From NCBI GenBank assembly GCA_025060595.1, contig JANXBX010000004.1, positions 132,827 through 196,826 on the forward strand: 64,000 nucleotides of DNA. The letters are read 5' to 3'. The stretch's first letter is position 1. Every line of letters starts with the position of its first letter. A program made the translations under genes and the position numbers. The notes below the pieces were generated by a model, which was given only the letters and a program-made list of their open reading frames with translations, was not told the origin of the DNA and ran no database searches. Below, one piece after another: positions 18,719 to 22,174 of this stretch. This DNA is from Synergistota bacterium (GTDB lineage: Bacteria > Synergistota > GBS-1).

Positions 18719-19334
18719 TTCTAGCCCTCCTTAACTGGTCTAAAAGATACTTAGCTACTTTATCTTTACTATCTAAAGCTAAAGCCCTCTCAAGATACCA
18801 TTCAGCTTTATCATAATTTCCTAACTCAAAAGCCACTCTCCCAGCCCAAAGAAAAGCTTTCTGAAAATCGGGATTCAAAGCACAGGATTTTTCATAAAGA
18901 GCTAACGCCTTCTCCTTTTCCCCTCGAGAATAAAAAATATAAGCCTTCTCATAAATTTCAAATGGCTCTTTTCCTTGCCTTATTATTTCCTCACATACCT
19001 TAACAAAGTACTGAGCTACTTTGTTATCTGGTTGAACCTCAGCTAACTTTTTCCAAGTACTTAATGCATCATGATACAAACCAAGCTCTTGATACAACCT
19101 CGCTAACCAGTAAAGGGCTTTAGCATGTTTGGGATCTCTTTCTAAAACCATGTTGTAGAATCTTATGGCCATATCATAAAACCCTTCTTGATAGTAGTTA
19201 TAAGCACCTTCAAAATATCTTTCGGTAACGAGCTTCTCTATATCCTCACTTTCTCCCACCTCAGCTAAAGCGAAAGACTCCAAAACCACAAGCAAGAAAA
19301 GAAGTGAACAAAATAAAAAATTGGATTTTCTCAT
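18705..19334 (-). CDS. Secreted TPR-repeat protein
   Basis: Protein of 209 residues with an N-terminal signal peptide (about 1-24) and four to five tetratricopeptide repeats in two blocks (about 36-110 and 125-205). The repeat consensus is clear in AIRFYNMVLERDPKHAKALYWLARLYQELG and KAEWYLERALALDSK. It acts as a protein-binding scaffold outside the cytoplasm. It is the first gene of the four-gene secreted-protein operon and its end overlaps the FN3 gene by 14 bases. An extended -10 sequence (TGCTATAAT, 19357-19365 on the minus strand) lies about 25 bases upstream. Confidence 0.85.
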   Translation of the reverse strand: MRKSNFLFCSLLFLLVVLESFALAEVGESEDIEKLVTERYFEGAYNYYQEGFYDMAIRFYNMVLERDPKHAKALYWLARLYQELGLYHDALSTWKKLAEVQPDNKVAQYFVKVCEEIIRQGKEPFEIYEKAYIFYSRGEKEKALALYEKSCALNPDFQKAFLWAGRVAFELGNYDKAEWYLERALALDSKDKVAKYLLDQLRRARNEKR

Positions 19335-19395
19335 TTTTTCAACCCCTCCCTAAGAAATTATAGCATAAGGTTTTTTAAAAATTATACTCTCATAC

Positions 19396-19425
19396 TTGAT
19401 TTTATCGTAGGATTAGTTTTATAAT
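19396..19425 (+). promoter_or_regulatory. Promoter of the dksA-like/gltX/tRNA transcript
   Basis: TTGATT (19396-19401) and TATAAT (19420-19425) separated by 18 bases, 34 bases before the ATG. The ribosome binding site AAGGGGTG lies just before the start. Confidence 0.65.
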
Positions 19426-19459
19426 TTTAAGGAACTTTATAATAACAAGGGGTGAAAAG

Positions 19460-19807
19460 ATGAGAGATCTGTCACGCTTTAAAAAACACCTTGAAGAAAT
19501 ACGAGAAACACTTAAAACGAGACTAAAGGTAATAGAGGGAGAAGGTCCTCGATATGCAGGCTCAGAAGAGGTAGATGTAGCAAATTATATGAATGAAATG
19601 GATTCTTTATTCAGGGAAAAGGAAGAAGCTGAAAAAACTTTGAAAAGGGTTGAAAAGGCCTTGAAGAGATTTGAAAAAGGGACTTACGGATTATGCGTAG
19701 ATTGTGGAAAGGAGATAAGCGAGGAAAGGTTAGAGGTCGTTCCCTTTGCCGAAAGATGCATAGAGTGCGAGAAAAAACTTAATAAAGTAGGGAGGAAATT
19801 AGGATAG
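19460..19807 (+). CDS. DksA/TraR-family zinc-finger protein
   Basis: Protein of 115 residues with an N-terminal coiled coil (about 1-75, rich in Glu, Lys and Arg) and a C-terminal four-cysteine zinc finger (CVDCGKEI, then CIECEKK, about 82-106). This is the DksA/TraR layout, which binds the RNA polymerase secondary channel and modulates stringent control of rRNA and tRNA promoters. The stop TAG shares its last base with the GTG start of gltX. The pairing recalls E. coli, where dksA precedes the GluRS-like gluQ. Confidence 0.88.
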   Translation: MRDLSRFKKHLEEIRETLKTRLKVIEGEGPRYAGSEEVDVANYMNEMDSLFREKEEAEKTLKRVEKALKRFEKGTYGLCVDCGKEISEERLEVVPFAERCIECEKKLNKVGRKLG

Positions 19808-21087
19808 TGGTAAGAGTCAGATTTGCCCCAAGCCCAACAGGTGCCCTCCATGTAGGAGGTGCAAGAACTGCCCTCTTTAACTGGCTTTTTGCCAGAAATA
19901 AGAAGGGCGTTTTTATTTTGAGAATAGAGGATAGTGATTTTCAAAGATCAACTAAAGAAGCAGAGGAAACCATACTTCAAGGATTGCTTTGGCTTGGCTT
20001 AGAATGGGATGAGGGACCATACAGACAAAGCGAAAGATTAGATATATATAGAAAATACGCTGAAAAGCTTGTTAGCGATGGCAAAGGTTATGAGGAAAAC
20101 GGAGCTCTTATATTTAAGGTCCCTCCCGGTGAAACAAGCTTTAATGATATAGTTTGGGGAGAGATAAAAATTAAAAATGAGACCCTTAAAGACATCGTTA
20201 TGATTAAGTCAGATGGTACTCCAACCTATAATTTTGCTGTTGTGGTGGACGACCATGATATGGGCATAACTCACGTGATACGCGGTGAAGACCATATAGC
20301 TAACACGCCTAAACAAATCTTAATCTACCAAGCTTTTGGCTGGGAGATTCCAAAATTTGCTCATTTACCAATGATATTGGGACCAGACAAATCCAAACTA
20401 AGTAAAAGACATGGTGCTACCTCTGTAGCTGAGTATAAAAATCTAGGGTTTCTTCCTGATGCCTTCTTCAACTATTTAGCCTTACTGGGGTGGAGCCCGG
20501 GTTTCGATCAAGAGATATTTTCCCGTGAAGAGTTAATTAACCTTTTCTCCCTTGAGCGAGTTATAAAAAGAGGTGCGGTGTTTGATATAAAGAAGCTCGA
20601 ATGGATGAATGCCCAATATATAAAAAGTACCCCTGGAGAAAAGCTACTTGAGCTTGTTTTACCATTTTGGGAAAACAAGGGATGGATCAAAGAGGAAAAT
20701 ATTGATAAGGGATATCTTATAAAAGTCATAGATTTGGTAAAAGAGCGTTGTAAAACCCTTATAGACGTGGTTAATTTTAGCGATTACTTCTTGCAAAAAG
20801 AACCAACCTATGATAAAATCTTTGTCAGTCAGGAGATAAAAGGCAAAGAAAAGTTACTTTTAGAGGTTGCCGAGAGATTAGAAAAAATTCAATCTTTCGA
20901 TGCTTCAAGTATAGAAACTTGTCTTAAAAGCTTTGCAGAAGAAAAGGGTATAAAATTAAAGGAACTTGCCCAAGCCATAAGGGTAGCTATAAGTGGGAAA
21001 AAAGTTACTCCTCCTCTCTTTGAAGTAATGGAGACTCTTAATAAAGATATAGTAGTTGAAAGACTAAAACGCTGGGGAATCGTCTAA
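19807..21087 (+). CDS. gltX: Glutamyl-tRNA synthetase, compact form, ending inside a tRNA gene
   Basis: Class I aminoacyl-tRNA synthetase of 426 residues that charges tRNA-Glu and, in organisms without GlnRS, also tRNA-Gln. The HIGH motif reads APSPTGALHVGGARTALFNW and the KMSKS motif is KLSKRHG (about residue 200). It is about 40-60 residues shorter than usual: after KLVSDGKGYEENGALIFKVP the connective segment that normally starts with a Cys/Tyr-rich stretch is missing. The GTG start at 19807 follows GGGAGG. The last five codons (Trp-Gly-Ile-Val-stop) are also the first 15 bases of tRNA-Gln. Confidence 0.95.
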   Translation: MVRVRFAPSPTGALHVGGARTALFNWLFARNKKGVFILRIEDSDFQRSTKEAEETILQGLLWLGLEWDEGPYRQSERLDIYRKYAEKLVSDGKGYEENGALIFKVPPGETSFNDIVWGEIKIKNETLKDIVMIKSDGTPTYNFAVVVDDHDMGITHVIRGEDHIANTPKQILIYQAFGWEIPKFAHLPMILGPDKSKLSKRHGATSVAEYKNLGFLPDAFFNYLALLGWSPGFDQEIFSREELINLFSLERVIKRGAVFDIKKLEWMNAQYIKSTPGEKLLELVLPFWENKGWIKEENIDKGYLIKVIDLVKERCKTLIDVVNFSDYFLQKEPTYDKIFVSQEIKGKEKLLLEVAERLEKIQSFDASSIETCLKSFAEEKGIKLKELAQAIRVAISGKKVTPPLFEVMETLNKDIVVERLKRWGIV

Positions 21088-21147
21088 TTGGCAGGACACG
21101 GGACTCTGGATCCCGCTGTGGAGGTTCGAGTCCTCCTTCCCCAGCCA
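21073..21147 (+). tRNA. tRNA-Gln (CUG anticodon), overlapping the gltX 3' end
   Basis: Cloverleaf of 75 bases with CCA encoded. Acceptor TGGGGAA pairs with TTCCCCA; discriminator G. The anticodon stem CGGGA/TCCCG encloses CTCTGGA, giving anticodon CTG. Bases 21073-21087 are shared with the gltX reading frame, including its TAA stop, which is part of the D arm (GTCTAATTGG). 5' processing of the tRNA would therefore cut the gltX mRNA just before its stop codon. Confidence 0.97.
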
Positions 21148-21168
21148 CATAACGGAAAAGGTAGAGGT

Positions 21169-21244
21169 GGCCCCTTCGTCTAGCGGCCTAGGATGTCGGG
21201 TTCTCAGTCCGACGACGCGGGTTCAAATCCCGCAGGGGCTGCCA
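21169..21244 (+). tRNA. tRNA-Glu (CUC anticodon)
   Basis: Cloverleaf of 76 bases with CCA encoded. Acceptor GGCCCCT pairs with AGGGGCT (a G-U pair at 1-72). The anticodon loop TTCTCAG gives anticodon CTC. It lies 21 bases after tRNA-Gln in the same transcript as gltX, the enzyme that charges it. Confidence 0.95.
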
Positions 21245-21250
21245 CTTTTT

Positions 21251-22174
21251 TTATTTCAAAGCTCTATTAGTCTTATTAACGAAGTAAACCCCTATTAATA
21301 TTAAAATTCCACCAAATATCAGAGAAAAACTCATTTCCTCTCCTAAAACAATTGAAGCTGCTACCATGCCTACTACAGGCTGTATGTTCATAAAAACCCC
21401 TACTTTCGAGGCCTCTAAAGCATCTAAAGCATCATACCAAAAAGCATAAGCAAGACCCGTACTCAGAAGCCCCAAGAAAAGCACTGCAACTAAGAGCTTA
21501 AAATCTCTTAAAACGATAATTAGATCATTAAAATATCCCTTCAGGATAAAGGTAATACCTATTAAAATAAAACCAAAAAGCACAGTATAAAAGATACTTA
21601 CAAGCTGAGGAATCTCCCTATGCCTATGAAGGAAAAGCCTTGAAATAACAGAGAAAAAGGCCCAATTAAAAGATGTAACCAGAATTATAATGTCTCCTAC
21701 CGTGCTTATACCCTGCTTTAAGACTAAGCTAATATCTCCCTCGCTCACTACAACTAAAACTCCAAAAAAGGAAATAGCTATTCCTAAGATCTTTAAATAA
21801 GAAAGATTTTCCTTAAGCAAGAACCTACTCAATATAGCAATGAATATTGGAGTTGTGGCTACTATCCAGGTAGCAGTTGAAGCTTTAGAAGAGTAAAGAG
21901 CATAAGCTTGAACCCATAAGTGCATGTATATCGCTATAACTCCAAAAAATAAAAACCAAGGAATAACGGACTTTGAGACTCTTAAGGACACGTTCCTTTT
22001 TCTAAGCAATATACCTAACACCATTAATCCGATTAAAACGCGAGAGAAAACAACCGAAATAGGAGCTATATGAGGAATTAAGTATTTGGTAGCTACAAAT
22101 GACATACCCCAAACAAAAACAGTAAGAAAAAGCTTTAGGTATAATAACCAAAGATCCTTACTCTTTAAAACCAA
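21251..22174 (-). CDS. EamA-family (DMT superfamily) transporter
   Basis: Integral membrane protein of about 307 residues with ten predicted helices in two EamA repeats (N half with WGMSFVATKYLIPHIAPISVVFSRVLIG; C half with TGLAYAFWYDALDALEASKVGVFMNIQPVVGMVAA). The family exports amino acids or metabolites; the substrate cannot be read. I choose TTG at 22174, five bases after AGAGGTG; an upstream TTG at 22207 would extend it by 11 residues without a ribosome binding site. It stands alone, 69 bases from the next operon. Confidence 0.85.
   Translation of the reverse strand: MVLKSKDLWLLYLKLFLTVFVWGMSFVATKYLIPHIAPISVVFSRVLIGLMVLGILLRKRNVSLRVSKSVIPWFLFFGVIAIYMHLWVQAYALYSSKASTATWIVATTPIFIAILSRFLLKENLSYLKILGIAISFFGVLVVVSEGDISLVLKQGISTVGDIIILVTSFNWAFFSVISRLFLHRHREIPQLVSIFYTVLFGFILIGITFILKGYFNDLIIVLRDFKLLVAVLFLGLLSTGLAYAFWYDALDALEASKVGVFMNIQPVVGMVAASIVLGEEMSFSLIFGGILILIGVYFVNKTNRALK

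Follow-up and report, generated by a model that had tools for sequence, protein, structure and literature searches.

The gltX gene of this Synergistota bacterium ends inside a gene for tRNA-Gln(CUG), which is followed on the same strand by a gene for tRNA-Glu(CUC). The features of the locus are collected in Table 1, with positions numbered along the window, that is, the whole stretch of 64,000 nucleotides that was analysed. Translation of gltX begins at a GTG codon (19807) and its final codons read AAA CGC TGG GGA ATC GTC TAA. Positions 1–15 of tRNA-Gln(CUG) double as the end of gltX, four sense codons followed by the stop codon, and the stop corresponds to U13-A14-A15 in the D-arm of the tRNA. 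An earlier note on this DNA had described the Trp-Gly-Ile-Val-stop tail as the first 15 bases of tRNA-Gln(CUG), with tRNA-Glu(CUC) 21 bases further on; the first statement is confirmed by the reading frame, ARAGORN and Rfam, and the second by ARAGORN.

Table 1. Features of the gltX–tRNA locus (positions in the window).
Feature	Position	Strand	Basis or remark
Operon promoter-like site, TTGATT-18-TATAAT, before the DksA/TraR-type gene	19396..19425	+	Same site in four family genomes
DksA/TraR-type zinc-finger protein gene	19460..19807	+	Stop codon shares one base with the gltX start
gltX, glutamyl-tRNA synthetase, 426 aa	19807..21087	+	TIGR00464 over cut-off
Promoter-like element within gltX, TTGCAA-17-TAAAAT, TG before the -10; candidate tRNA promoter	20791..20819	+	Five genomes
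Conserved rare Arg codon CGC, last before the tRNA	21070..21072	+	Same in 4/4 family genomes
tRNA-Gln(CUG)	21073..21147	+	ARAGORN; 5′ end 21073 also by Rfam
gltX stop codon TAA (tRNA-Gln positions 13–15)	21085..21087	+	Sequence, reading frame
tRNA-Glu(CUC)	21169..21244	+	ARAGORN, Rfam; 21 nt 3′ of tRNA-Gln(CUG)
Seven-T run right behind tRNA-Glu; possible transcript end	21246..21252	+	Read directly

The overlap is more than a matter of chance. Among the 45 different tRNA genes of the genome, collected through Rfam loci, a single one is entered from upstream by a long frame (at least 100 aa), namely tRNA-Gln(CUG) after gltX. In the same collection the Gln and Glu anticodons (CUG, UUG, CUC and UUC) are represented by one tRNA gene each. 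Over positions 19300–21400 nothing apart from the two tRNAs reaches an Rfam E-value of 1, and no riboswitch or T-box was detected upstream of gltX.

What is special to this locus is that positions 1–15 of the tRNA take over the conserved C-terminal codons of gltX together with its stop. In most relatives, in which gltX has an ordinary end, the C-terminus of the enzyme follows the pattern R-L-x-[HYF]-[YWF]-G-[LIFVM]-[LIVM], and the tRNA read from its first base encodes W-G-I-V-stop in place of the usual HYGL[IV]. Since this tRNA-encoded ending can replace the usual motif and stop, the fusion would have cost little. Towards its end the gltX of family f5 contains TGGGGCATACTC, which is close in sequence to the 5′ end of the tRNA, and at the matching place it reads CAC TGG GGC ATA CTC. 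This includes TGGGG, with which tRNA-Gln begins, and joining the genes at so short an identity would keep the C-terminal motif of the synthetase. The route of the fusion thus seems readable from the shared TGGGG and the matching WGI[VL] tail. In the predicted structure of GltX (mean pLDDT 91) the last helix spans residues 413–422, so that residue 422 is both its end and the last residue encoded ahead of the tRNA, while the tail (423–426) is modelled as coil with lower confidence (mean pLDDT of the last block, 69). The protein is also short, as approximately 30 residues of Thermotoga maritima GluRS2 are absent between residues 95 and 100 (window 20089–20106), and GltX lengths are similar in relatives from the phylum.

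The expectation that close relatives would share the overlap is borne out. The junction reads CGC-TGGGGAATCGTCTAA throughout the window family, which comprises four genomes (that of the window, G000, plus G001, G002 and G003), although the contig of G001 ends within the tRNA. In a fifth genome, G005, which belongs to another family, 17 extra bases lie ahead of the tRNA, so that gltX enters tRNA-Gln(CUG) in a different frame and meets its stop 31 nt inside it; this genome is a draft (82% complete), and a single base error would alter its gltX frame. There, tRNA-Gln(CUG) is followed by a run of T and not by tRNA-Glu. At this locus (L072, G005:C94) the UGGU immediately 5′ of the tRNA could pair with the GCCA at its 3′ end. 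The 25 relatives from other families that were read directly have a gltX with its own stop and no tRNA-Gln behind it. Across 185 genomes of the phylum, compared by coordinates and among the matches listed, gltX adjoins tRNA-Gln(CUG) in these five only; in the phylum at large tRNA-Gln(CUG) and tRNA-Glu(CUC) stay paired, again among the matches listed, and lie away from gltX.

The gltX tree places the window family and G005, a long branch, outside the other 25 relatives. The gene immediately 5′ of gltX divides the 30 genomes compared in the same way: a DksA/TraR-type gene is found there in the five overlapping genomes, and the other 25 have none at this place. In E. coli, dksA adjoins gluQ, a paralogue of GluRS, so the pairing may not be accidental. 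The identical overlap in four family genomes is weak evidence of selection, because these genomes share a common ancestry.

The order of genes extends well beyond this phylum. Public genomes were scanned for a tRNA-Gln(CUG) pattern with tRNA-Glu behind it; in the arbitrary sample of loci that resulted, gltX lies upstream on the same strand at 28 of the 76 with a recognised tRNA-Gln, among the matches listed (L103–L182). In these, the linked gltX often lies 20 to 200 nt from the tRNA, with spacers of up to 2.7 kb, and the linked loci come from Corynebacterium, Nocardia, Bifidobacterium, Dehalococcoidia, Syntrophomonas, Gelria and Eisenbacteria. Around the Dehalococcoidia locus, gltX stands 20 to 90 nt before the tRNA in 18 of 30 loci (L220–L249). 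Overlap of gltX with tRNA-Gln occurs in none of the 28 linked loci, among the matches listed. The order gltX, tRNA-Gln(CUG), tRNA-Glu(CUC) is therefore widespread in bacteria and not special to the genome of the window, and the overlap looks like a family-specific variant of it. Searches of open-access literature brought up nothing relevant to this gene order, to overlaps between tRNAs and coding sequences or to co-transcripts of mRNA and tRNA.

With regard to the pathway that produces Gln-tRNA, the earlier note had pointed out that bacteria without GlnRS charge both tRNAs with GluRS and amidate Glu-tRNA-Gln with GatCAB, and as regards glnS and gatB the gene content of this genome agrees with that scheme. 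A glnS gene was not found in the genome (99% complete), in which TIGR00440 matches the two GluRS genes alone and far under its cut-off. The genome does carry gatB (at G000:C1:80934-82352, where TIGR00133 exceeds its cut-off with E 3.4e-175), as do all 61 genomes examined. GlnRS scores over cut-off alongside GatB in 20 of these 61, patchily within the phylum and never in the window family. The second GluRS gene lies at G000:C5:49831 (locus L001, G000:C5:48331-51945), and both genes occur in the four genomes of the family. The closest solved structure to the GltX of the window is T. maritima GluRS2, and to the second enzyme T. maritima GluRS1, a likeness that is suggestive as a lead on charging specificity. 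The gltX–tRNA linkage is not tied to the indirect pathway, since it persists in some genomes that possess GlnRS, e.g., that of Syntrophomonas. The idea that linkage marks the loss of GlnRS likewise found no support: GlnRS accompanies 4 of 26 loci with the linkage and 11 of 33 without it (Fisher p 0.14), a comparison confounded by the many Actinomycetota.

No terminator-like site was scored from the operon promoter-like site to the tRNAs, nor was a hairpin terminator scored after tRNA-Glu. Of the 26 tRNA transcription units of the genome, 19 are preceded by a sigma-70-like promoter whose -35 hexamer lies between -38 and -56; tRNA-Gln(CUG) has no such site there. In the four family genomes no near promoter appears within 250 nt at a threshold of 9 of 12, and at 8 of 12 a single weak site turns up, in one genome only. 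Among unlinked relatives, 17 of 25 show promoter-like sites no more than 120 nt from their tRNA-Gln(CUG) at a looser threshold. As the usual near promoter is missing, transcription of the tRNAs out of gltX is very likely, judging from the sequence. A candidate seen by eye near 20967 (TTGCCC, TATAAG) was dropped because it is not conserved in the aligned relatives.

The promoter-like element within gltX complicates this picture. It lies at -282 from tRNA-Gln in the four family genomes, and G005 has the homologous TTGAAA-17-TAAAAT with the same TATGATAAAAT, despite a GltX that is only 56% identical; the corresponding region holds no such site in any of the 25 relatives without the linkage. The peak of synonymous codon conservation in gltX falls at the element or directly 5′ of it, and 7 of 10 codons over it are identical, vs. 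19% for gltX overall. In 2000 synonymous shuffles, which ignore shared ancestry, a site common to all five genomes never appeared and an extended site in G000 and G005 appeared in 0.45%. In the window the element scores no more than 9 of 12; it sits in coding sequence and was picked out post hoc. Most of the other tRNA promoters in this genome are stronger, and over the whole region promoter-like sites are no more numerous than in shuffled sequence. Taken together, these observations make a tRNA promoter inside gltX likely, so that part of the tRNA, or even the greater part, may stem from a transcript without the enzyme message. The supply of tRNA may then be partly uncoupled from enzyme synthesis, and the full-length gltX message is probably not its sole source.

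The earlier note had proposed that gltX is cotranscribed with both of its substrates, and had named a separate strong promoter between gltX and tRNA-Gln as evidence against its proposal. The first idea is supported by the lack of a terminator and of a near promoter, and is weakened by the conserved internal element; the contrary evidence was not found close to the tRNA, but the internal element comes close to it.

The same note had argued that cleavage by RNase P at the 5′ end of tRNA-Gln would remove the stop codon from the gltX message, and the anatomy of the locus supports this: the expected site (21072/21073) is 5′ of the stop, which remains on the tRNA side. After the cut, the gltX mRNA would end at codon 422 with no normal termination, and tmRNA is present in the genome. 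The further statement, that every transcript yields the tRNA or else a message that can be translated in full, goes too far: several rounds of translation are possible on a single transcript ahead of its cleavage. The codon just ahead of the site, CGC, makes up 2.7% of the Arg codons in the frames of the window. A pairing of its G-2 with C74 and of its C-1 with G73 is predicted, which would give the tRNA precursor an acceptor stem of nine pairs; such pairing, a lead from a single codon, could slow or shift the cleavage.

The explanation that we favour, and regard as probable, is that the locus is a gltX–tRNA-Gln–tRNA-Glu unit whose spacer has shrunk below zero, and that its message, once cut, is retired from enzyme synthesis. 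The spacer would have been lost in a transcription unit of a known type, with tRNA-Gln supplying W-G-I-V and the stop. The tRNAs would be made from transcripts that leave gltX, started at the operon promoter ahead of the DksA/TraR-type gene and probably at the one inside gltX as well, and RNase P would excise from any full-length message the tRNA plus the final four codons and the stop of gltX. Ribosomes that later reach the end of the cut message would need rescue by tmRNA. Each full-length message would thus be retired after maturation of the tRNA, which would keep the enzyme low relative to the stable tRNA. A ribosome that stands at the gltX stop would sit over the 5′ portion of the tRNA, and folding and termination would compete from moment to moment and not over the life of the transcript, so that several GltX proteins could be produced ahead of cleavage. 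The steps that we infer are that the genes are co-transcribed, that the internal promoter is used and that translation is lost after cleavage. The overlap is most likely a product of compaction that possibly also limits the translation of gltX, and this effect is in our view more probably a tolerated by-product than selected regulation.

Selected regulation is the bolder reading: the rate of RNase P cleavage would decide between enzyme and tRNA and couple substrate production to the synthesis of GltX. The position of the stop on the tRNA side of the cut speaks for it, as do the retention of the overlap in two families although their frames differ, and the rare CGC that precedes the tRNA in all four family genomes, whose predicted pairing with G73/C74 could slow cleavage. 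We nevertheless consider it unlikely, given that the conserved internal element could yield tRNA without enzyme message, that the genome has a second GluRS and that linked clusters elsewhere function with spacers of 20–200 nt and no overlap. It is similarly doubtful that RNase P, by making the gltX mRNA non-stop, caps the enzyme obtained per transcript while pairing between CGC and the tRNA 3′ end tunes the cleavage.

A simpler proposal, to which we give a real though less than even chance, is that a deletion at the shared TGGGG fused gltX to the tRNA with no functional consequence, translation being completed before the tRNA folds and the tRNAs coming mainly from the promoter inside gltX. The fit of WGIV-stop to the conserved C-terminus, the TGGGG at the matching place in the gltX of f5, the conserved internal element and the predicted coil of the GltX tail are all consistent with it; it leaves unexplained, in a small sample, the conserved CGC codon and the absence of a stop before the tRNA in both families. 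Finally, tRNA-Gln could be transcribed from a promoter of its own in the last codons of gltX, with the overlap incidental to transcription. This arrangement would be typical of most tRNA units of the genome and of many unlinked relatives, yet it is very improbable here: in all four family genomes the 250 nt before the tRNA are free of sites that reach 9 of 12, and lowering the threshold to 8 of 12 brings in a single weak site in a single genome.

If the coupling is real, a single cleavage would fix how much of a synthetase is made relative to its substrate tRNA, and no regulator would be needed. Even if the overlap is merely tolerated, it offers a clear bacterial case in which the gene of a structural RNA supplies the last codons and the stop of a protein gene. 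The conservation of gltX, tRNA-Gln(CUG) and tRNA-Glu(CUC) across phyla ties, in turn, a synthetase to its substrates, and no description of this tie was found in the open-access literature searched.

The closest counterparts of this locus are the clusters of Actinomycetota, Dehalococcoidia, Syntrophomonas and others, which share with it the upstream gltX on the same strand and the order and anticodons of the tRNAs; in them, however, gltX keeps its own stop codon and, among the loci listed, never overlaps the tRNA. As for the indirect pathway, T. maritima resembles this bacterium in its lack of GlnRS, its GatB and its two GluRS enzymes, both of putative charging specificity in this bacterium. 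Transcripts that join mRNA and tRNA occur in E. coli, where secG-leuU and the thrU-tyrU-glyT-thrT-tufB operon are examples. In these, as proposed here, the tRNA is excised from a protein-coding transcript, but tRNA and coding sequence do not overlap and the message keeps its stop after processing. The transcripts of animal mitochondria show tRNA punctuation: the excision of tRNAs sets the ends of the messages and may fall within or at stop codons. The end of the gltX message would likewise be defined by the excision of a tRNA; the difference is that in mitochondria polyadenylation completes the stops, whereas here the unit is a bacterial operon with tmRNA available for rescue.
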